From Lactiplantibacillus brownii (GTDB lineage Bacteria > Bacillota > Bacilli > Lactobacillales > Lactobacillaceae), in assembly GCF_031085375.1 (NCBI RefSeq), contig NZ_JAVCWF010000001.1:248001-312000 (forward strand): a DNA stretch of 64,000 nt, read 5' to 3'. The notes beneath the pieces are model-generated. The model ran no database searches. It had not been told where the DNA came from and saw nothing but the letters and a program-made list of their open reading frames with translations. Every line of letters starts with the position of its first letter. Positions within the stretch are counted from its first letter, which is position 1. Shown here in pieces: positions 805 to 60,718 of the stretch. Made by a program: the position numbers and the translations under genes.

Positions 805-1377
805 ATGCGTAAAGATGCAGCACAAAATCGTGCCAAAATCTTGGTTACAGCAGCTAAGTTATTTCAACAACGGTCAGTTAGTACGGTGAGTATGAAAGAT
901 ATTGCCAGCGCAGCGCAGATTGGCACTGGAACACTTTATCGTAACTATCCTAATAAGAGCGAATTATGCTTGGCCTTGTCATTCGATTTTATTCAACAGT
1001 TCATCACAACGAGTCAAAATTATCTCGGTCAAACGACAGCCAAACCAGTGGTTCAATTTCAGCAGGTGTTAGCGCAGTATTTGGCTTTTCGTGAGCGACG
1101 GCTACAATTGTTAACAGCGATTGAAAGTGGCCCAACAGTGATGGCCACTTATTACCAGAGTACGTTGTACCAACAATTGGTCGCGTTATTCAAACGAGTA
1201 TTAGCACCAGTCAGTGGCGATATTGAGGATGACGAATTGACTTTTCGAGCGGACATGGTCATTGCGATGCTCAAAAGTAATAGCTATGCCTATCAGCGAC
1301 AACAACAAGGGTTATCACGGGAGCAAATTGCTAACAATATCAGTCACTTAATGATCAGAAATGAAAAGGGACTTTAA
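805..1377 (+). CDS. TetR/AcrR family transcriptional regulator
   Basis: This 190-residue protein has the TetR N-terminal helix-turn-helix at about residues 8-55, including SMKDIASAAQIGTGTLYRNYPNK, followed by an all-helical ligand-binding domain. Such proteins are dimeric repressors released from DNA by small ligands. The ATG is preceded by GAGGTGGTG. It is divergent from the TauE/SafE permease and probably controls it through the palindrome at 734-745. A terminator follows directly. The ligand is unknown. Confidence 0.85.
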   Translation: MRKDAAQNRAKILVTAAKLFQQRSVSTVSMKDIASAAQIGTGTLYRNYPNKSELCLALSFDFIQQFITTSQNYLGQTTAKPVVQFQQVLAQYLAFRERRLQLLTAIESGPTVMATYYQSTLYQQLVALFKRVLAPVSGDIEDDELTFRADMVIAMLKSNSYAYQRQQQGLSREQIANNISHLMIRNEKGL

Positions 1378-1420: not shown

Positions 1421-1457
1421 GTTTTTTAAATGTGATCATTTAAATTGTTGAAACTAA

Positions 1458-1938
1458 TGTGGTGTAGCTCTCATATTTATAAGTATCCGCTTAACTTGCC
1501 GTTCCGGTTGGTCTGGCTTGATGCTGGAACGTGGTGGCCGCGTTTGTGAGCCAAAGTGCGGTCTCACAAGCCGGGATTTTCCTAAGCTGGAAAAACCACC
1601 AGCAAAGGAAAATTTCACCACTGAGCATCATCCAGCCCGCCCTGCGCTAAATAGTGGATCTAATATTAATTAGCTTTTTGTCAGGTTCTGACTTTACTAC
1701 TACCCAGATTAAAATCACTGTTTGACGTCGGAGTGGACTAGCTCGTTTGCCGTGTCGAGACACTTAGCTGGGTGATTTTCCCAGGTTAGTGTCTGGCCGA
1801 CTTTTAAGACGTGGGCTTCGGCTTGAAAGCGCCCTGCAGACCGGTCTTTGGCTGCAGGTCTGCCTCACAGCAAACGTGCTGGTCCACGGAGACGGACAAT
1901 TAATGAGCTATTTTAATAAATATAATAGCTTCACCACA
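1458..1938 (-). repeat. MITE-like dispersed repeat, copy A (full length)
   Basis: This non-coding element of about 480 bp is nearly the reverse complement of 60242-60697 and partly matches 28613-28974. The ends form inverted repeats: TGTGGTGTAGCTCTCATATT on the left and, read inward on the other strand, TGTGGTGAAGCTATTATATT on the right. The 4 bases CTAA lie directly outside both ends, a possible target duplication. Inside are two large imperfect palindromes with several branches each. It begins directly at the stop codon of the dipeptidase gene (TAG, 1939-1941), whose last codons overlap the flanking CTAA. The short open frames inside have no coding features. Confidence 0.8.
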
Positions 1939-3360
1939 CTAAAGGTTTTGACCCTTTTCCCAGCTTGTCTTCGATAAAAGCAAACCGTGTTTAACGAGTT
2001 CATCGAATAACGCGTAAGTCCGCTTGGAAATTTCACCAGCAGTCTCAGCGTTAGCGGTCGTCAAATAGTCGGTCACATCACCAGTTACGTTGGCGTCGGT
2101 TGCGGCAACACGGCCGCGGGCATAGGATTGACAGCCGTTGCGATAAGCGTTGACGGCTTCAGCGAATTCATGCCAGTGGGGTTCGATCAACGTTGATAAG
2201 GTCTTGTTGAGCCAGTAAACGTTGTGTACATCAACGGTCGCCGTGGTATTGCGATAATCAAGTGGCGTGTCATTGATATTCGTAAAGAATGGCACAGATG
2301 GCGCATAGGCGAAGAAGCCCATGGCAACCCATTGAATGGCCGCTTGTTCAGCCGGCACATCGTTACGAATTTGCAAGATCGATTGACATTGGTTACGATC
2401 CATCGCGATTGAGCGGTATTTCTTCTGGTCATCGGCAGATCCAGAAGCATAGGTGTCAAATGGATCATATGGCGTGCCATTATAGTGGGATGCTAAGAAA
2501 AATTGGACGTCTTCAATCGCTAATAATTTGCTGGGTTTGCGGCACATTGGCATCTTTTGATCAGTCGGTTGTTGGTCAGCAATTTCTGGATTGAATAATT
2601 TTTGACCATACCAAGTACGAGGGGTGTTGTAATAAGCATCGTCCTCGCCATGTGTGCCGAAAATTTCACGGAAATTGAATTGACCTGGTCGTGGGTTTAA
2701 ATGATTCTTTTCAACGAAATCGACTAAGTCAGTTGCGCCGAGAAAGTTATCGGCATCACTCAAATCCAAGTTTTCGACGACCGTTTGATTGGGCACGATC
2801 GCATAGGTGTTATCTGGCAAACGCATGGCGCCCCAATGATGACCACCGGCCGTTTCTAAAATCCAGATATCGTCATGGTCATTGAAGGCAATACTGTTAC
2901 ATTCGCCGGTCCCATACTTTTCAATTAAAGCCCCCAACCGTTGGACGCCTTCTTTGGCGCTCTTAATATAGGGAAGAACGAGGGTTAACATCGCTTCTTC
3001 GTTAACACCGTCAGTGACTAATGGATCATAGCCTAAGACGCGGGCATTGGTCGCAGTCGTTTCAGTTGCACTCATGCCGACGTTTAACTCATTGATCCCG
3101 GCTTCTTCATACTGACCATCACTTTGGTCCGCTTGCGGTGTGGCCGTATAGCGGTACGCATGGTCGGGCAGTGGCACCGTGACGCCCGTCGTCACTGACG
3201 TATAACTAGCAGCCGTTTGATCCTTGGCTGGATGCACCACGAATTTAATTGGATTAATCGGGCCGTAACCATCCTCGTTACGAGCCACAATCGTCGAGCC
3301 GTCAATGGTAGCGGCCTTACCGACGAGAATTTCGGTACAATCAGAACTTTTTTTCAACAT
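1939..3360 (-). CDS. pepD: C69 family dipeptidase
   Basis: This 473-residue cytosolic dipeptidase belongs to the N-terminal nucleophile family C69, which cleaves a wide range of dipeptides. The motif SDCTEILVGKAATIDGS at residues 6-22 contains the catalytic Cys8, and ARNED follows as in the family. Length is normal. The ATG at 3358-3360 is preceded by AAGGGGG. The gene is monocistronic. Its stop codon touches repeat copy A, so the final residues (KGQNL) and the native 3' UTR may have been changed by the insertion. L. plantarum carries several pepD paralogues, so the exact copy cannot be named. Confidence 0.9.
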   Translation of the reverse strand: MLKKSSDCTEILVGKAATIDGSTIVARNEDGYGPINPIKFVVHPAKDQTAASYTSVTTGVTVPLPDHAYRYTATPQADQSDGQYEEAGINELNVGMSATETTATNARVLGYDPLVTDGVNEEAMLTLVLPYIKSAKEGVQRLGALIEKYGTGECNSIAFNDHDDIWILETAGGHHWGAMRLPDNTYAIVPNQTVVENLDLSDADNFLGATDLVDFVEKNHLNPRPGQFNFREIFGTHGEDDAYYNTPRTWYGQKLFNPEIADQQPTDQKMPMCRKPSKLLAIEDVQFFLASHYNGTPYDPFDTYASGSADDQKKYRSIAMDRNQCQSILQIRNDVPAEQAAIQWVAMGFFAYAPSVPFFTNINDTPLDYRNTTATVDVHNVYWLNKTLSTLIEPHWHEFAEAVNAYRNGCQSYARGRVAATDANVTGDVTDYLTTANAETAGEISKRTYALFDELVKHGLLLSKTSWEKGQNL

Positions 3361-28502: not shown

Positions 28503-28553
28503 AAAAAAATGATTGGCAACTGTTCATTACACCTGAACGGTTACCAATCATTT
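28503..28553 (-). terminator. Terminator of the 28984-29760 gene, beyond repeat copy B
   Basis: The stem AATGATTGG...CCAATCATT with inner pairing (TGTTCA/TGAACG) is followed on the minus strand by a run of seven T. No gene lies nearer than 28984-29760 on that strand, so it ends that transcript after repeat copy B. The stretch 28384-28500 holds nothing else I recognise. Confidence 0.75.
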
Positions 28554-28612
28554 GAACCTTTTCTAACACAAGGATGAGCTTAACTTGAATTTTGCTTGGA
28601 CTGAAAATTAGT

Positions 28613-28974
28613 ACACCACAGCCAGCATATTTATTAAAATAATTTTGTCGGTCTCCGTTGACTAGCACGTTTGCTGTAAAGTGTTTTAAGCCGAGAACCA
28701 ATGTCTTGAAAGTCGGTCCACTCCGATGCCAAATAGCGATTTAATCAAAAGAATATTGATGATTCCAGTATCAACGAAAGATTAATTGATATTAGGATTA
28801 CTGATTAGCGCAGGGCGGGCTGGATGATGCTCAGTGGTGAAATTTTCCTTAGCTGGTGGATTTCCAGCTTAGGAAAAGCCCGGCTTGTGAGACCGCATTT
28901 TGGCTCACAAACGAGGCCACCACGTTCCAGCATCAGTCCAGACCAACCGAAGCGGCAAGCTAGGCTACACCATA
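28613..28974 (+). repeat. MITE-like dispersed repeat, copy B (internally deleted)
   Basis: It matches copy C in the same direction but lacks much of the first palindrome (from the GAGGCAGACC region to the TGTCTTGACA region). The second palindrome is complete, with stems TTTTCCTTAGCTGG/CCAGCTTAGGAAAA, TTGTGAG/CTCACAA, GTGGTG/CACCAC and CTGGATGATGCT/AGCATCAGTCCAG. The ends keep ACACCACAGCC...TATTTATTAAAATA on the left and GGCTACACCAT on the right. It starts 9 bp after the stop of the 28984-29760 gene. Confidence 0.75.
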
Positions 28975-28983
28975 TTGGCACAA

Positions 28984-29760
28984 TCAAATTGCCTGTAATT
29001 GGGCTTGTTGCCGAATTGCTTCCACATAGATGCGAACAAAATCAGTGCCATAGGCGGCTGCCAGTTGTTGTTCCAAGCTGGGTGTCGGTGGTAATTGTCG
29101 TAATAATGGCCGAATCCATTGATTTGTTGGCAATAATCGCAATAATTGATGGCTCGTGAATTGTGAAAATAGTAAATTGCGGCCGAAATATTGTCCGAGT
29201 CGTGCTTGAAATGCTGGTTGCTTAACTGGCACCAGCTGTAAGCTGCTATTATTCATATTTCCTAACAATAATTTGGCACTTGGAAAATCATCGTGTAGAT
29301 CCAATCGTTGATTCTTATACGCCTTCGCAATGGTTGGCGATAATTGAACTAACCAAATTAATTGATGCTGTTCCAGATGTAAGACTAACCGCAACGTCAC
29401 GATATCGATTGGTTGTAAGTAGTAGCTATATTGTTGCAGTGTTGTTGGCGTTAAACGTTGCCGCAAGGTTTGTCGTACGCTTGCGAAGTTACCGGCCTCC
29501 CAAGTGACGGCTAACTGGTCATGATTACTCAGCCATAACGTATGATCAGCGATGCGCAGGGTCAGAAATCGTGGCATTGAATGATCCGGTTGGTCAAGCA
29601 TGAGTAACCAGTAGGAACTCGCGCTGGAACGTGCGAAGTTGCGTGCCAAGATGTGGACGTTGGTTGGTAAGGCCATTTGCACCGCCAGTTGTAGCTGACG
29701 CCGATGGGCATCGGTATTTACGAATTGGTTAGGATCGTGATTAATTCGTCGTTTTGCCAT
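28984..29760 (-). CDS. Conserved hypothetical protein
   Basis: This 258-residue soluble protein is rich in Leu and Gln, with no signal peptide, no membrane span and no motif I recognise. It starts MAKRRINHDPNQFVNTDAHR. The ATG at 29758-29760 has an ideal GGAGGTA upstream, and the longer frame to 29856 would read through it. It is divergent from the GH65 gene. Its transcript appears to run through repeat copy B to the terminator at 28503-28553. Confidence 0.65.
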   Translation of the reverse strand: MAKRRINHDPNQFVNTDAHRRQLQLAVQMALPTNVHILARNFARSSASSYWLLMLDQPDHSMPRFLTLRIADHTLWLSNHDQLAVTWEAGNFASVRQTLRQRLTPTTLQQYSYYLQPIDIVTLRLVLHLEQHQLIWLVQLSPTIAKAYKNQRLDLHDDFPSAKLLLGNMNNSSLQLVPVKQPAFQARLGQYFGRNLLFSQFTSHQLLRLLPTNQWIRPLLRQLPPTPSLEQQLAAAYGTDFVRIYVEAIRQQAQLQAI

Positions 29761-29893
29761 TGGCCGTACCTCCTTAGATGATAAACTACCTTGAGTATAG
29801 GCCAAAATTAGTTTAACGACACAAATTTGGCCCAAATAGTTCGTGATTTTGGACATTCGATGGTGAAAGCAGCTATTGCCTGAGTTTTCGGGG

Positions 29894-47906: not shown

Positions 47907-48173
47907 ATGGAAACAGGAATTTTGAAGCAAGTTGACTTGCAAACGGCGATAGCTCAGTATTTTTATGTTGAGGCTGACCATCATGCTAACTGGATTAAGG
48001 TGTCTTCAACTCAACCGTTTAAACCGTTTGAGCTAACGTTACGGATGAGCGACTTACAAATTGAGCATGATTCTGCCGTGGCGGCCACTAAACATAAAAA
48101 GTATGAATTTAACGATAACACGGGTGGCCTGATTACGCTATTCGAAAATTGGCAACGGACGTTGATTGCTTAG
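47907..48173 (+). CDS. Small hypothetical protein
   Basis: This 88-residue soluble protein starts METGILKQVDLQTAIAQYFY. The ATG at 47907 has GGGGTG 6 bases upstream, which fixes the start within the longer frame. No domain is recognised. The 3' UTR holds a small remnant of the dispersed repeat and then a terminator. Confidence 0.55.
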   Translation: METGILKQVDLQTAIAQYFYVEADHHANWIKVSSTQPFKPFELTLRMSDLQIEHDSAVAATKHKKYEFNDNTGGLITLFENWQRTLIA

Positions 48174-48292: not shown

Positions 48293-48340
48293 AAAACGCG
48301 AGCCAGCCTAGCAATTTGCTAAGTTGGCTCGCGTTTTCTT
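48293..48340. terminator. Bidirectional terminator
   Basis: AAAACGCGAGCCA (48293-48305) pairs with TGGCTCGCGTTTT (48325-48337), with an inner stem, between the convergent small gene and the LCP gene. Confidence 0.88.
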
Positions 48341-53452: not shown

Positions 53453-56400
53453 TTGAAAGGGAGCCGTAGACAATTTACCATTCAGGCTGTCATTTGGCTG
53501 ATAGTGATGGTGGCGGCCATCATTTTGCTACCAAATGTCAGCAATCTGGTCCGCGATAAGGGCCAAACACAGTTGCCAAGTAGTGCGAAGAGTCAAGTTG
53601 CGTCCGTTATTCAAAATCATTGGGGACGTAATCAAAACAACACGCGCCAAGTGGTCGTGGTGTTTAGCAACGGGGATAAACCGATAACTTCGACCCAGAA
53701 GCAGGAGATTGCTGGGACAATCAAACGCTTCAAGGTACAGAAGTCTAAATACCATGTGAAATCAATGACCGCAGCTAGCGATAATTCTGCAGCTAAGAAA
53801 CAATTGATTTCAAAAGATAAATCAACCGAATTATTACAATTAATGGTTGGTGAAAATCAGACCGTTACTAATATGACGAAGACCATCACGCAAGGAGCCA
53901 AAACGGCGGGCGTCAAAACGTACGTCACCGGGAGTGATATCTTAACTGATGACTTTACGCAGGAAACGGAAACCGGCCTACAAAAGACTGAAATCATTAC
54001 CGTGATCTTTATCTTCATTGTTTTGACATTAGTCTTCCGGTCACCGATTACACCGTTGGTATCGCTATTATCAGTTGGGTTATCGTTTATTATTTCATTG
54101 AGTATTGTGATGAATTTGGTCGATAAGTTTAATTTTCCATTGTCCAACTTCACTCAGGTCTTTATGGTCGTGGTCCTCTTTGGGATTGGGACCGACTACA
54201 ATATTTTGCTGTTTGATCAATTCAAAGAAGAACTCAGTCATGGCGATAGTCCAGTCGCCGCGACTGGGCGGGCGTTGAAGATAGCTGGCCGGACGATTCT
54301 GTTTAGTGGTTCCTCACTATTAATTGGGTTTAGTGCCCTCGGATTAGCCAACTTCTCGATTTATCGCTCTGCCGTTGGGGTCGCCGTTGCGGTGGCGATT
54401 CTGTTGTTAGTGCTATTAACTTTGAACCCGTTCTTTATGGCTTTACTCGGACCGAAGTTGTTCTGGCCATCTAAGAAGTTCTCAGGTGGGAGTACTAGCA
54501 AGATGTGGCATGGGATTGCCGCTGGCTCTGTGCGTTATCCTTTGATTGCCTTAGTGGTCGTCTTAGGGGTTGCAGCGCCATTTATCTTTACCTATAGTAA
54601 TCAATTAAATTATGATACTTTAGCTGAATTGAATGATTCGATTCCAGCTAAGCAAGGCTTTAAAGTGGTTCAGGCTCATTTTTCAAAAGGGACGGCAGAA
54701 CCTTCGACGCTCTATATTAAATCGAGTCATAAGTTAAATAATGAAAAAGATATCAAAGCAATTGACAACTTAACACGTCAATTGAAGCAAGTTAAGGGTG
54801 TCAAAACCGTTGCTTCTGTTAGTCAACCAGGTGGCTCAGAAATTAGTGACCTGTACGTTAACAAGCAATTGGGTACCGTGACAACCGGGATGAAGTCCGC
54901 AAGTAAGGGCTTGAAGAAGATTAGCAGTGGCTTGGATAGCGCTGATAGTCAACTGAAAAACTCAAACATGTCGTCCGGTGTCAGCAGCGCTAAGGAATTA
55001 GCGGATGGCGCACAGACCCTTTCAGATGGTGTCGTGACCTATGCTAACGGTGTTTATACCGTTAACAATGGTTTGGATCAGTTGAATGGGAAGACGGGCA
55101 CGCTGTCGAGTGGTGTTAATCAGTTGGCAAGTGGGTCAAAACAAGTGACGACTGGGTTAAATACCTTAAATGGTAAGACTGGAACCTTAGCAAGTGCTAC
55201 TAGTCAATTAGCGAGCGGTTCTGGAACTCTTGCCAAGGGTGTTGTGACTTATACTAACGGTGTTTACACTGTCAATAGTGGTTTGAATGAATTGAATGGT
55301 CAAACTGGAACACTGAGTTCTAAAGTTGGAACTTTGTTTAATGGTACTTCAACGCTCTCCTCTAGTTTGGACAAACTTTCTAGTCAAAATGGCACAGTGG
55401 CATCGAGGCAGGCTGAACTAATTAGCAGTATTGGTCAGTTACAACAAGGCTCTTCTGCAATTGCGTCTAAGCTTCAGTTGATGCAAACAGCGGTAAATAA
55501 TGGCAACACTACTCAGAATAAGTGGGATTTAAATGAGTTGACTAAAGGGCTTAACTCACTTAATTCAAGTATGGATGAGTTACTAGAACTTTCTAATTCC
55601 ATGGGATCTGCTACGGATGATGTTAATAACTTTGCCAGTGTTCTTTCAAGCACACAGACACCGATTAAGTCTGATATGGGTACGATCCAAAGTGCTTTAG
55701 AGAGTGCTGCTCGAACAGATGTTGCTAATACAAAGACAGGTTCAACGAGTACGGGTGTCAACGCTAGCGATGTTGCTTCTGCAGCGATTGCAGCAGCTGG
55801 CTCATCGGCGACATCAGAACAAAAAGCGGCAATTACCTCCGCCGTTACATCACAAGTTAATGCGCAAAATAGTGCTAACAGTAGTTCAGCAACATCTACA
55901 ACTAAAGCTACTAGTGCTACGGATGCAAAGGCTGGGTTAAATGCATTATCTGATCTGCAAAAGCAACTAACAAGCATTACTGATGCAGCTGGTAAGTTAC
56001 AGACGTTAAGCACAAATATGACTAAGCTATCAAGTTTAACTAAACTTGCAAACAGTTCAAAAGCGGCCAACACTAAGTCAATTGAAGCTATAACTAAATT
56101 GGAAGCATCCATTACTGAAGTGCAAACTGCACTCAATGGGGCCGGAACTGCCGATAATCCTGGATTTGTACCAAGTATGGATAGCTTATCTTCAAACTTA
56201 CTCCAATTACAAAATGGTGCTGCAACATTAGCTTCAAGTATTAATGGCTATACAGGCTATGTTTCTCAAGCAGCTAATGGCGCTAATGAGATTAATAATG
56301 GTGTTGGGACTTTAAATGCTTCGATTCCAACATTAACGAGCGCTATCGGGGCGTTAACAGCCGGAACGAATAAGTTAGCAGCTAATTCTGCTACTTTGAA

Positions 56401-57610
56401 TAGTGGTGCTTCCCAAGTTGCTGCTGGTAACAGTCAATTGAATGCGCAAGTACCTGCTTTAGCAAGCGGTGTTAGTCAGTTGGCTTCTGGTTCTAATCAA
56501 GTTTCCACTGGATTAACTAGCCTTCAAGGGCAATTACCAACGTTAGTTAGTGCTATCAGCGCCTTGGATGCTGGGACCAATAAGTTAGTTGCAAACTCTG
56601 CAACCTTAACTTCTGGGGCTTCCCAAATTGCGGCGGGTAACCAAACGATGTACACAACGTTGCAAAGTCTTGTTAAACAGATGGCAACGTTGCAAAAAGG
56701 TTTGGCAACGGCTAGCGATGGGACTAAGACCATCAACAAAGGTGTTGGTTCAGCTAATAGTTACTTGACTGGCTTGAAGGATTCAGACGCGGCGAAGACT
56801 TACTACGTACCAAAGAGTACGTTGAAGAGTAAGACTTATCAAACAGCGCTGAATACGTATATGTCCAGCAATTACCATGCGACGAAGTTGACGATTGTCT
56901 TGAAAGATAATCCAAGCTCCAAGGCCGCGATGAATAAGATTTCTGCTATCCAAACACAAGCCCAAAATACGTTGAAGGGGACTTCCTTAGACGGTTCTAC
57001 GATTGCCATCGGTGGTCAAACGTCTGAAACGAATGATACCCAATCAATCGCATCGAGTGACTTTGTCCGGACTGCAGCAATTATGTTAGTCGGAATTTTA
57101 CTTGCGTTGATGTTCATCACGCGTTCCGTCTTACAACCGTTCTACATCTTAGGGACGTTGTTATTGGCTTATATTATGTCCTTGAGTATCACGCGGATGT
57201 TGAGTAGCTGGTTCATGGGTCAAGATATGTTGACTTGGAACACGCCATTCTTCGGTTTCATCATGCTGATTGCGCTTGGGGTCGATTACAGTATCTTCTT
57301 GATGATGAAGTATCGTGAGTTTGATAACACGGCGGCAACGCCAAGTACACGGATCGTGCGGGCTTCTGCGGTTATCGGTGCGGTGGTCTTATCCGCTGCC
57401 CTGATCTTGAGCGGGACCTTCGCCGCCTTGATGCCATCTGGTGTCTTGACCTTGATCCAAGTGGCGATGGTTGTGATTATCGGGTTAATTATCCTGGTAT
57501 TCGCTATTCCAACGGTTATTCCAGCGCTGATTCGTTTGACTTATCCTTTGACGGATAACATGGAAAATGAATCGACCACGGATGAACCAACGAAACGATC
57601 ACACAAATAA
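53453..57610 (+). CDS. MMPL/RND-type membrane protein with long YhgE-like coiled repeat domain
   Basis: This 1385-residue protein has one span near residues 8-26, then five or so spans at about 170-330 and one at 355-375. An extracytoplasmic region of more than 700 residues follows, and a second MMPL block with five to six spans lies at about 1205-1365 (FGFIMLIALGVDYSIFLMMKYREF, matching VVLFGIGTDYNILLFDQFKEEL in the first). The long region carries repeats of the form QLASGSxxVxTGLxxL, typical of YhgE/Pip proteins. Such proteins may export lipids or drugs or act in surface assembly. The start is TTG with GGGAAGGG upstream. It is divergent from a TetR regulator. Confidence 0.85.
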   Translation: MKGSRRQFTIQAVIWLIVMVAAIILLPNVSNLVRDKGQTQLPSSAKSQVASVIQNHWGRNQNNTRQVVVVFSNGDKPITSTQKQEIAGTIKRFKVQKSKYHVKSMTAASDNSAAKKQLISKDKSTELLQLMVGENQTVTNMTKTITQGAKTAGVKTYVTGSDILTDDFTQETETGLQKTEIITVIFIFIVLTLVFRSPITPLVSLLSVGLSFIISLSIVMNLVDKFNFPLSNFTQVFMVVVLFGIGTDYNILLFDQFKEELSHGDSPVAATGRALKIAGRTILFSGSSLLIGFSALGLANFSIYRSAVGVAVAVAILLLVLLTLNPFFMALLGPKLFWPSKKFSGGSTSKMWHGIAAGSVRYPLIALVVVLGVAAPFIFTYSNQLNYDTLAELNDSIPAKQGFKVVQAHFSKGTAEPSTLYIKSSHKLNNEKDIKAIDNLTRQLKQVKGVKTVASVSQPGGSEISDLYVNKQLGTVTTGMKSASKGLKKISSGLDSADSQLKNSNMSSGVSSAKELADGAQTLSDGVVTYANGVYTVNNGLDQLNGKTGTLSSGVNQLASGSKQVTTGLNTLNGKTGTLASATSQLASGSGTLAKGVVTYTNGVYTVNSGLNELNGQTGTLSSKVGTLFNGTSTLSSSLDKLSSQNGTVASRQAELISSIGQLQQGSSAIASKLQLMQTAVNNGNTTQNKWDLNELTKGLNSLNSSMDELLELSNSMGSATDDVNNFASVLSSTQTPIKSDMGTIQSALESAARTDVANTKTGSTSTGVNASDVASAAIAAAGSSATSEQKAAITSAVTSQVNAQNSANSSSATSTTKATSATDAKAGLNALSDLQKQLTSITDAAGKLQTLSTNMTKLSSLTKLANSSKAANTKSIEAITKLEASITEVQTALNGAGTADNPGFVPSMDSLSSNLLQLQNGAATLASSINGYTGYVSQAANGANEINNGVGTLNASIPTLTSAIGALTAGTNKLAANSATLNSGASQVAAGNSQLNAQVPALASGVSQLASGSNQVSTGLTSLQGQLPTLVSAISALDAGTNKLVANSATLTSGASQIAAGNQTMYTTLQSLVKQMATLQKGLATASDGTKTINKGVGSANSYLTGLKDSDAAKTYYVPKSTLKSKTYQTALNTYMSSNYHATKLTIVLKDNPSSKAAMNKISAIQTQAQNTLKGTSLDGSTIAIGGQTSETNDTQSIASSDFVRTAAIMLVGILLALMFITRSVLQPFYILGTLLLAYIMSLSITRMLSSWFMGQDMLTWNTPFFGFIMLIALGVDYSIFLMMKYREFDNTAATPSTRIVRASAVIGAVVLSAALILSGTFAALMPSGVLTLIQVAMVVIIGLIILVFAIPTVIPALIRLTYPLTDNMENESTTDEPTKRSHK

Positions 57611-58483: not shown

Positions 58484-60241
58484 ATGGGTAAAACTATTGA
58501 AGCATCCGTTGCAATGTTAAAGGTTCTTGAAGCTTGGGGGATTAAACAAATTTATGGTTACGCCGGTGGATCGTTTAATTCGACGATGCATGCCCTTGAT
58601 GTGGAGCAAAAGCGCCTACACTATATCCAAGTTCGTCATGAGCAGGTTGGCGCCTTGGCCGCAGCAGCCGCTGCCAAGTTAACCGGCAAGATTGGGGTAG
58701 CGTTTGGTTCCGCAGGCCCTGGCGCTGTTAATTTATTGAATGGCTTATATGATGCCAAGGAAGACCACGTCCCAGTTTTAGCTTTGGTCGGGCAAGTGGC
58801 TCACACGAATATGAATTATGATTACTTCCAAGAATTTGCGGAAGAACCCATGTTTAGCGATGTTGCGGTATTCAATCGGACTATCATGACGCCAGAAAGT
58901 TTGCCGTATGTTGTGGATAAAGCAATCCGGACGGCGTATAAAGAAAAAGGAGTGGCAGTCGTCACGATTCCTAATGATTTTGGCTATGCGGCTATTCCGG
59001 ACGTGGACTACGATTCAGCTAGTGTGCCGGCTGGAGAAGTGACCGCTCCAGCGATTCCCGATGATCAGATTAAGCACGTTTTAGCTTTGATCAAAGCCGC
59101 TAAATATCCAGTCTTTCACGTTGGGCAAGGAACCCGTGGTGCGACCGAACAAATGATGCAACTAGCCGATCGCTTACAAGTGCCTATTATCATTACAGGC
59201 TTGGCTAAAGGTGTCATTCCAGATACGTTTGCCGGCAACATGGGGAGCGCTTATCGAGCTGCCTCGAAAGCAGCTGACGAATTAATGGCGATCACTGATT
59301 TGGTTGTTTCAATCGGCGCGGATTACTCCTTTGCCCAGATTATGTATACGACTCATGATTTCAAATATGTTCAAATTGAATTAGATTCGGGCAAGTTTGG
59401 TCGGCATCATCATTTGGATTATGGGATTAATGGTGATGCTAAAGCGTTCGTGACACGAGCTTTAGCCTTGAGCGAAGCCGCAGCGCCGTCACCTTATTAT
59501 CAAGCGGCGGAAGCAGATATGGCTGACTGGAAGCAATATTTGCAACGATTGAGCAATCGGACGACGGACCCACTCGAATATGAACAAGTTTACAAGGAGA
59601 TCAATCGTGTCGCGACAGATGATGCCATATTCTCCATGGATGTTGGCGATAATACGATTAATAGTTTCCGCTTCTTACAAATGACTCCCAAACAAAAGTT
59701 GTTGACCTCGGCGCTATTTGCGACGATGGGGGCCGGCGTTCCCGGCGCAATTGCGGCAAAGCTGAGTTATCCAGATCGGCAAGCCTTTAACATTGCTGGG
59801 GATGGTGCCTTTTCAATGGTCATGCAAGACTTATTGACCGAAGTGAAATACCAGTTGCCAATCTTTAATATTGTGACGTCTAATCAAACTTTGAACTTTA
59901 TTAAGTCTGAACAAGAGGACGTGCCACAGCCTTACTTTGGGATTGATTTGATTGGTGCAGACTTTGCTAAGATTGCAGAGGGCATGGGCGTTAAGGGGAT
60001 TAAAGTAGCGCACTTCGAACAATTGCATGCGGCTTTTGATACTGCCATGGCTGAGATTAAAGCCGGTCGTCCAGTGTTAATTGATGCGAAGATTACGGCT
60101 AAGCGTGGGTTGCCAGTTGAAATCCTGGATGTTGATCCAGCTAAGACTTCGGCTGCTTCGGTCGCTAACTTCAAGCGCCAATACGATGCCGAAGCCTTAC
60201 AACCACTTGCCGCCTATTTCAGTAAGTTTGGGGTCAAATAA
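58484..60241 (+). CDS. pox: Pyruvate oxidase
   Basis: This 585-residue thiamine diphosphate/FAD enzyme converts pyruvate, phosphate and oxygen into acetyl phosphate, CO2 and H2O2. The catalytic Glu lies in YIQVRHEQVGALAAAAAAKL, the ThDP motif in NIAGDGAFSMVMQDLLTEVKYQLPIFNIV, and the family-typical VNLLNGLYDAKEDHVPVLALVGQ is present. The ATG at 58484 (MGKTIEASVAML) is chosen because AGAAGG lies 10 bases upstream; the ATG at 58421 lies inside the promoter and before the cre site. L. plantarum has several pox paralogues. Its transcript probably runs through repeat copy C. Confidence 0.9.
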   Translation: MGKTIEASVAMLKVLEAWGIKQIYGYAGGSFNSTMHALDVEQKRLHYIQVRHEQVGALAAAAAAKLTGKIGVAFGSAGPGAVNLLNGLYDAKEDHVPVLALVGQVAHTNMNYDYFQEFAEEPMFSDVAVFNRTIMTPESLPYVVDKAIRTAYKEKGVAVVTIPNDFGYAAIPDVDYDSASVPAGEVTAPAIPDDQIKHVLALIKAAKYPVFHVGQGTRGATEQMMQLADRLQVPIIITGLAKGVIPDTFAGNMGSAYRAASKAADELMAITDLVVSIGADYSFAQIMYTTHDFKYVQIELDSGKFGRHHHLDYGINGDAKAFVTRALALSEAAAPSPYYQAAEADMADWKQYLQRLSNRTTDPLEYEQVYKEINRVATDDAIFSMDVGDNTINSFRFLQMTPKQKLLTSALFATMGAGVPGAIAAKLSYPDRQAFNIAGDGAFSMVMQDLLTEVKYQLPIFNIVTSNQTLNFIKSEQEDVPQPYFGIDLIGADFAKIAEGMGVKGIKVAHFEQLHAAFDTAMAEIKAGRPVLIDAKITAKRGLPVEILDVDPAKTSAASVANFKRQYDAEALQPLAAYFSKFGVK

Positions 60242-60697
60242 TTTGTTGATATTGTCCGTCTCCGTGGACCAGCACGTTTGCTGTGAGGCAGACCTGCAGC
60301 CAAAGACCGGTCTGCAGGGCGCTTTCAAGCCGAAACTCACGTCTTAAAAGTCGGCCAGACACTAACCTGGGGAAACCACCCAGCTAAGTGTCTTGACACG
60401 GCAAACGAACTGGTCCACTCCGACGTTAAATAGCGATTTAACAAGGGAACATTGATAAACCAAGTATCAATGAAAGGTCAATTAATATTAAGGATTACAG
60501 GTTAGCGCAGGGCGGGCTGGATGATGCTTAGTGGTGAAATTTTCCTTTGCTGGTGACTTTCCAGCTTAGGAAAAGCCCGGCTTGTGAGACCGCACTATGG
60601 CTCACAAACGTGGCCACCACGTTCCAGCATCAGTCCAGACCAACCGGAGCGGTAAGTTAAGCAGATACTTCTAAATATGATAGCTACACTACACCAC
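60242..60697 (+). repeat. MITE-like dispersed repeat, copy C (near full length)
   Basis: It is nearly the reverse complement of copy A across both palindromic halves. The first half folds by CCGTGGACCAGCACGTTTGC with GCAAACGAACTGGTCCAC, enclosing GACCTGCAG/CTGCAGGGC and AGACACT/AGTGTCT hairpins. The second half has the same stems as copy B. The right end reads TAGCTACACTACACCAC. The left terminal inverted repeat is missing and the element follows the pox stop codon at once. Confidence 0.78.
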
Positions 60698-60718
60698 TTT
60701 GTGTTAAAAAATAACAAT

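Follow-up and report, generated by a model that had tools for sequence, protein, structure and literature searches.

Dispersed two-module repeats with a conserved fold near gene ends in a Lactobacillaceae genome

Repeat copies and neighbouring genes in the window

The window analysed here is a 64,000-nucleotide stretch, G000:C1:248001-312000, of a 3.35 Mb genome of Lactiplantibacillus type (G000, the genome under study). A family-profile search united three repeats in the window, copies A, B and C, as one family, and a weak remnant was designated fragment D. Copy A lies between a TetR gene and pepD, copy B beside the gene at 28984-29856, and copy C 3' of pox, whose nearest named relative among the records listed, from which near-identical ones may be missing, is that of L. 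nangangensis (94% amino acid identity). The features are as follows, with modules given on their module-sense strand and R1 denoting the covariance model.

805-1377 (+) and 1939-3360 (-): TetR gene and pepD, the convergent neighbours of copy A (Pfam)
1380-1421 (no strand given): bidirectional terminator between the TetR gene and copy A (terminator scan)
1434-1946 (-): copy A, 580 bits, with terminal inverted repeats at both ends
1491-1649 (-): copy A module 2, R1 173.2 bits
1712-1900 (+): copy A module 1, R1 match at 1754-1834 on +, E=4.1e-6
1939-1941 (-): pepD stop codon TAG, which is also the terminal TAG of copy A (comparison with G011, G009 and G014)
28503-28553 (-): terminator of the gene at 28984-29856, beyond copy B (terminator scan, -21.7 kcal/mol; sequence)
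28597-28983 (+): copy B, a full module 2 with module 1 mostly deleted (profile search, sequence)
28806-28963 (+): copy B module 2, R1 176.3 bits
48192-48247 (+): fragment D, weak remnant of the start of module 1 (nhmmer, 17 bits only)
60231-60712 (+): copy C, with both modules and the right terminal inverted repeat (nhmmer with the family profile, 559 bits)
60251-60439 (-): copy C module 1, R1 match at 60317-60397 on -, E=2.8e-6
60503-60660 (+): copy C module 2, the folded unit with tail ACCGGAGCGG, R1 174.6 bits
60719-60766 (+): terminator beyond copy C (terminator scan, -24.9 kcal/mol; sequence)

The original prediction that the repeats start at stop codons was borne out. Homology begins 0-9 bp from the pepD stop (ending at 1939) in copy A, about 0-7 bp from the stop at 28984 in copy B and about 10 bp from the pox stop (60241) in copy C, which has no recognisable left terminal inverted repeat; the remnant D starts 18 bp past the stop at 48173 and is followed by a tail-like GACCAACCGAAGCG. 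It had further been proposed that the first terminator lies beyond the repeat in four cases out of four. The scan found a strong hairpin-plus-T terminator in that position for pepD, the 28984 gene and pox, and the one for fragment D comes from reading of the sequence only; as a rule, however, the claim falls to four of six facing gene ends, since A and D both lie between convergent genes. The bidirectional terminator precedes the repeat for the TetR gene and lies beyond it for pepD, although for pepD the scan first met a weaker hairpin within copy A, and this gene was therefore counted as 'inside' in the genome-wide tally below. The LytR-type gene opposite fragment D stops at 48340 and, by eye, has its terminator before the repeat. 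Copies A and C are sense to pepD and pox, respectively, and copy B is antisense to its gene on the minus strand.

No tRNA genes were found in the window. Two 110-bp direct repeats, 72% alike, lie at 54996-55315 within a 1385-aa MMPL-family gene (53453-57610).

Element anatomy and module fold

Near-full elements measure about 480-520 bp and comprise two modules of about 160 nt each (54-55% G+C), set as a divergent inverted pair with the conserved tail of each module near an element edge and a poorly conserved spacer between them. Module 1 corresponds to a reversed, diverged form of module 2: a broad profile built from relatives matches the other strand at 54 places, and R1 also detects module 1 in copies A and C. 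Variants in the genome include module 1 alone, module 2 alone, a shrunken module 1 and an insertion of about 120 bp in module 2. This insertion, in a hairpin of module 2, marks a long subfamily seen at G000 201772, 815699, 1014769, 1033499 and 1328231, with further members at 1914392, 2057735, 2464878 and 2587193. An apparent palindromic element proved to be a false result of a mixed-strand alignment and its profile, and was not upheld with oriented copies.

Copy C (60242-60710) has a fold z-score of -8.4 relative to shuffles. The module fold consists of 47 pairs in four helices, and its loops are conserved. In an alignment of 61 modules from the genome and its relatives, made by sequence alone (A1), 98.6% of cells were paired and 29 of the 47 pairs showed two-sided changes, a value as high as which was reached in 0 of 500 shuffles; shifting partners by one column lowered pairing to 40-44%. 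A second alignment of 44 modules that included other genera and was fitted to the model (A2) gave 98.0% of cells paired, with 41 of 47 pairs covarying. Neither the window nor 20 element loci matched Rfam 15 at the gathering score.

The balance of G.U and A.C states indicates which strand folds. Predicted on the module strand, the fold contained 71 G.U and 11 A.C, a choice of fold that itself allows G.U, and the opposite strand of module 2 in its own predicted fold contained 109 G.U and 55 A.C. As such strand-by-strand folds make a biased wobble test, we turned to the pairs that the predictions for both strands share. On this common footing, module 2 (46 pairs) showed 54 G.U and 11 A.C, with a ratio of 36:0 for states in more than three sequences, and module 1 on the opposite strand (34 pairs) showed 37 and 16, with a ratio of 22:0. 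The G.U excess on opposite strands shows that the two modules fold on different strands, each in the outward 5' to 3' direction.

If every resident copy worked as RNA, new mutations in the copies should favour G.U over A.C. We scored mutations on the fixed structure in 81 module 2 and 65 module 1 copies of the genome. Those present in one to three copies gave G.U:A.C ratios of 24:17 in module 2 and 28:25 in module 1 (52:42 together), which are small counts, and variants in more than three copies gave 55:23 in module 1 and 8:5 in module 2. The pair states of A1, by comparison, were 11:8 when seen once, 8:3 in two to three sequences and 52:0 in more than three; the rare mutations within the genome differ from the A1 cells with p=6e-6, although related modules do not supply independent cells. 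In A2, whose sequences mostly represent separate genomes, the ratios were 12:4, 27:5 and 11:0 for states seen once, two to three times and more often, and we read the excess of G.U among the rare states there as lineage-level changes between genomes. Within the genome under study, paired sites differ from the consensus less than unpaired ones (0.044 versus 0.118 in module 2 and 0.050 versus 0.107 in module 1), a conservation that could reflect either constraint in situ or selection at the level of propagation. With rare changes about equal and widespread ones G.U only, the data are most simply read as selection of the fold during propagation, followed by decay of resident copies; selection thus seems to act in propagation rather than copy by copy.

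Placement among genes and terminators

Copies were pooled from several DNA searches of the genome, and 87 surrounding stretches were analysed by profile, giving an incomplete collection of at least 100 chained elements, of which at least 95 score 60 bits or more. Twenty stretches away from known copies (400 kb) yielded a further five model and six profile matches, mostly fragments, which estimate missed copies and not density. Context counts omit the five of 100 chains below 60 bits (including fragment D), as well as an element lying at the edge of a stretch, leaving 94 placed elements; each of the neighbouring chains in a cluster (for example at 802 kb) entered as a separate element. Gene calling used a codon-usage script that reproduced most long ORFs of the window and missed some, and any ORF covered by an element over more than half of its length was excluded from the gene set.

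None of the 94 elements has its midpoint within a called gene. Tandem gaps hold 54 of them, convergent gaps 23 and divergent gaps, which have no stop on either side, 17, compared with 112, 33 and 51 of 196 element-free gaps. Judged against gap length, convergent gaps are enriched and divergent gaps depleted (p=1.6e-5); the comparison by gap number is weak (p=0.063, with per-class Fisher tests of p=0.15 and 0.14). In tandem gaps the upstream stop is closer than the downstream start for 40 of 54 elements (p=0.0005). For 30 of the 94 elements a stop is overlapped or no more than 20 bp away; a start is equally near for 2 of the 94. Pneumococcal repeats are similarly placed, which has been interpreted as tolerance of insertion downstream of genes (PMC3049150).

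The original prediction had ascribed the position of the window copies to selective insertion into, or survival in, 3' UTRs. Its first half-claim stands in so far as copies are non-random with respect to stops and lie nearer the 3' sides of genes; together with the avoidance of genes and starts, this fits the 'survival' option, as has been argued for the pneumococcal repeats (PMC3049150). What did not carry over to the genome is a location between stop and terminator. We scanned for terminators at the 100 gene ends that face 77 elements, and the first terminator lay before the element at 51 ends, beyond it at only 20 and inside it at 10, with none found at 19; control gene ends had a terminator in 93 of 162 cases, starting at a median of 21 nt past the stop. 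The copies thus avoid genes and gene starts, yet in general are not located between stop and terminator. They probably gather at gene ends because they do least harm there.

These data bear on a functional alternative, in which the repeat is a 3' UTR RNA: with read-through from either side, the transcript would contain one module in the orientation that folds, this would stabilise, process or end the mRNA, and copies would be kept for that purpose. Strand-specific covariation and conserved loops are what such a role would produce, a divergent pair would suit transcripts arriving from the left or the right, tandem copies do sit nearer the upstream stop, and for 45 of the 77 elements that face a gene end, one or more of the facing genes has no terminator ahead of the element. 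Against it, the terminator comes first at about half of the gene ends, 17 of 94 elements lie between divergent genes, and elements are sense to 47 and antisense to 53 of the 100 facing genes, which is no sense bias. The rare mutations of resident copies, moreover, show no preference for G.U over A.C and favour the fold in neither module, and the site of copy A is unshared with close relatives, as are three more sites in G009. General residence in the 3' UTR of the upstream gene was therefore not upheld, and we regard a functional 3' UTR RNA as unlikely, if the strongest of the rival accounts.

No bias towards replication-fork orientation was seen (53 of 95 elements). Separately, a region of about 440 kb that starts near the replication terminus (G000:C1:1471861-1914392; the sign of the GC skew switches near 1.53 Mb) contains only one degenerate element of the collection, and three 20-kb samples within it (L359-L361) gave no match. 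A gap that large appeared in none of 5,000 random placements of 95 elements, and a 289-kb gap in 40 of 5,000.

Relatives, element ends and the nature of the repeat

A DNA search matched 14 of 60 genomes, including the one under study, all but one within the genus. The R1 search (E<=1e-4, strict filters) covered 397 Lactobacillaceae genomes of 40 genera, an even sample of a larger group, and found the module in at least 112 of them, in at least 14 genera and, within the genus, in at least 19 of 21 genomes; 285 of 397 had no match under the strict filters. Among 76 sequences from relatives, 60 of which were chosen for holding a match, 62 contained at least one module: exactly two in 40, three in 1 and one in 21. 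The divergent arrangement is retained, with tails outward at 39 of 40 two-module loci, 1 tandem and 0 inward. One genus (g16) has seven loci with two strong modules, five with close modules and outward tails, and two (L328 and L334) with same-strand modules about 1.2 kb apart and, between them, ORFs for NAD-binding proteins. Neighbouring genes at 25 loci were, by eye, of ordinary cellular type.

Among 79 named loci, R1 matches lie near pox in L. dongliensis, Lacticaseibacillus kribbianus, Lapidilactobacillus wuchangensis and L. dextrinicus, and a partial match lies near pox in Schleiferilactobacillus perolens. Module pairs also occur at other positions within the same pox and pepD 3' regions of relatives (L128:7804-8163; L212 and L214 past pepD). 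Eight of 60 relative loci occupy an intergenic region that also holds an element in the genome under study; their junctions failed to align, so that neither a shared ancestral insertion nor a hotspot was shown. In L. fabifermentans (L177, about 2230-2460) a different palindromic element of about 200 bp, with its own inverted ends and a similar hairpin motif by eye, lies past pox.

The ends of the element vary. Terminal inverted repeats were recognised at both ends of 20 of 95 elements, at one end of 27 and at neither end of 48, compared with 4 of 400 random windows. Past the conserved tail, the flanks of relatives appeared mostly unique by eye, and six loci (L128, L212, L214, L224, L254 and L256) have another terminal repeat in common, given as CGCTTGGTGCTAGTTG for L128, L212 and L214. 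The terminal repeats of the genome under study, unseen by eye in relatives, thus seem to belong to this species' version. Relatives with pepD in the 84-89% identity class (G014, G009 and G011) lack the element at the copy A site, and G009 lacks it at three further sites. The junction at this one clean empty site is consistent with insertion at the TA within the TAG stop codon of pepD itself, which would have been kept because the element end supplies the G; a stop codon coincides with the terminal TAG at 5 of 38 measured gene ends. TA is therefore possibly the target in this species, on the evidence of a single site.

Candidate partners for movement were sought with two transposase domains. 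IS630-type DDE_3 (PF13358) was absent from the genome under study and from 20 of 21 genus genomes, with one match in the remaining genome. Y1 transposase (PF01797) was absent from this genome and from G008 and G014, all of them rich in elements, whereas 13 of 21 genus genomes have one, the element-bearing G018, G009 and G011 among them. Neither domain thus offers an IS630 or RAYT-type partner as mover in the genome under study. Plasmid and phage collections gave no match to the probes used, and one exact 25-base pattern had no match in IMG/VR. Among 31 near-full copies, the best pair was 93% identical and the median 84%; with copies at most 93% identical, recent activity is not apparent.

If the repeat were a conventional MITE that a TA-targeting transposase moves, its modules being passenger sequence, this would account for the excess of terminal inverted repeats over random windows and for the TA at the pepD stop codon. 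About half of the elements (48 of 95), however, have no recognisable terminal repeats, few relatives show any by eye, and those another one; DDE_3, the TA-targeting family searched for, is absent from the genome under study, the putative TA duplication is known from one site, and the conserved fold and its strand asymmetry would be left unexplained. We consider this account improbable. It is very improbable that the modules are remnants of a guide, a non-coding RNA similar to omega-RNA or bridge-RNA, whose insertion sequence has been lost: although a conserved scaffold ends at the edge, pointing outward into a flank that by eye is mostly unique, and has no Rfam match, no nuclease or transposase was recognised by eye in 46 neighbouring ORFs of 25 loci, the ORFs between modules at L328 and L334 encode NAD-binding proteins, and the spacer is poorly conserved.

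We favour, with moderate confidence, the reading that the repeat is a selfish, non-coding, REPIN-like chromosomal element. Its unit is the pair of ~160-nt modules in divergent inverted orientation, with tails near the edges, and the fold would be required when the element propagates. Most likely, the ends would be recognised in folded single-stranded form (as DNA, or as an RNA intermediate) by a host enzyme, by analogy with the proposal for REPINs, where folded doublets are the substrate of a transposase (PMC3116915). Copies would decay after insertion, and their position at gene ends would be mostly a residue of purifying selection, insertions in genes or near starts having been lost. In this species' version, the pair also has terminal inverted repeats, and its target may be TA. 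Only tentatively do we extend this reading to a so far undescribed kind of mobile nucleic acid across the family Lactobacillaceae, with two large folded modules as ends, copied through folded single-stranded DNA or RNA by a host-encoded enzyme that is neither Y1 nor IS630.

Known repeats offer partial parallels. REPs are short single hairpins of about 20-40 nt, and RUP and Correia elements are MITEs with a TA target. The repeat resembles the latter two in the terminal inverted repeats recognised at one or both ends of 47 of 95 elements in this species, and possibly in a TA target; unlike them, it has no IS630-type transposase in the genome, and its terminal repeats are unseen in relatives. It also differs from REPIN/REP in the three element-rich genomes that lack a Y1 transposase. 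With REPIN/REP (PMC3116915) it has in common many intergenic copies, an inverted doublet as the unit with singlets as leftovers, and folding as single-stranded DNA or mRNA with compensatory changes; REPs are short palindromes beside a RAYT transposase, whereas each module here has ~160 nt and several helices. QMITE2-type MITEs also have terminal inverted repeats around a folded core, but MITEs have been described as AT-rich (PMC10969869), and the present modules are 54-55% G+C and conserved across genera. Pneumococcal BOX, RUP and SPRITE (PMC3049150) are likewise structured and dispersed, with an excess in convergent gaps and slow present-day insertion, and BOX is similarly modular; the repeat is set apart from them by its divergent pair of one homologous module and by strand-specific covariation across genera. 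Searches of the open-licence literature by title or abstract start found no description of the repeat.

A fold of about 160 nt with tens of covarying pairs and without a match in Rfam 15 recurs within genomes and occurs in at least 14 of the 40 genera searched, in a family with many food bacteria. The contrast between rare and widespread G.U and A.C states may serve as a general test of selection in propagation versus selection on resident copies. If the element is self-propagating, its mover would be an enzyme that can now be searched for by co-occurrence with the modules.
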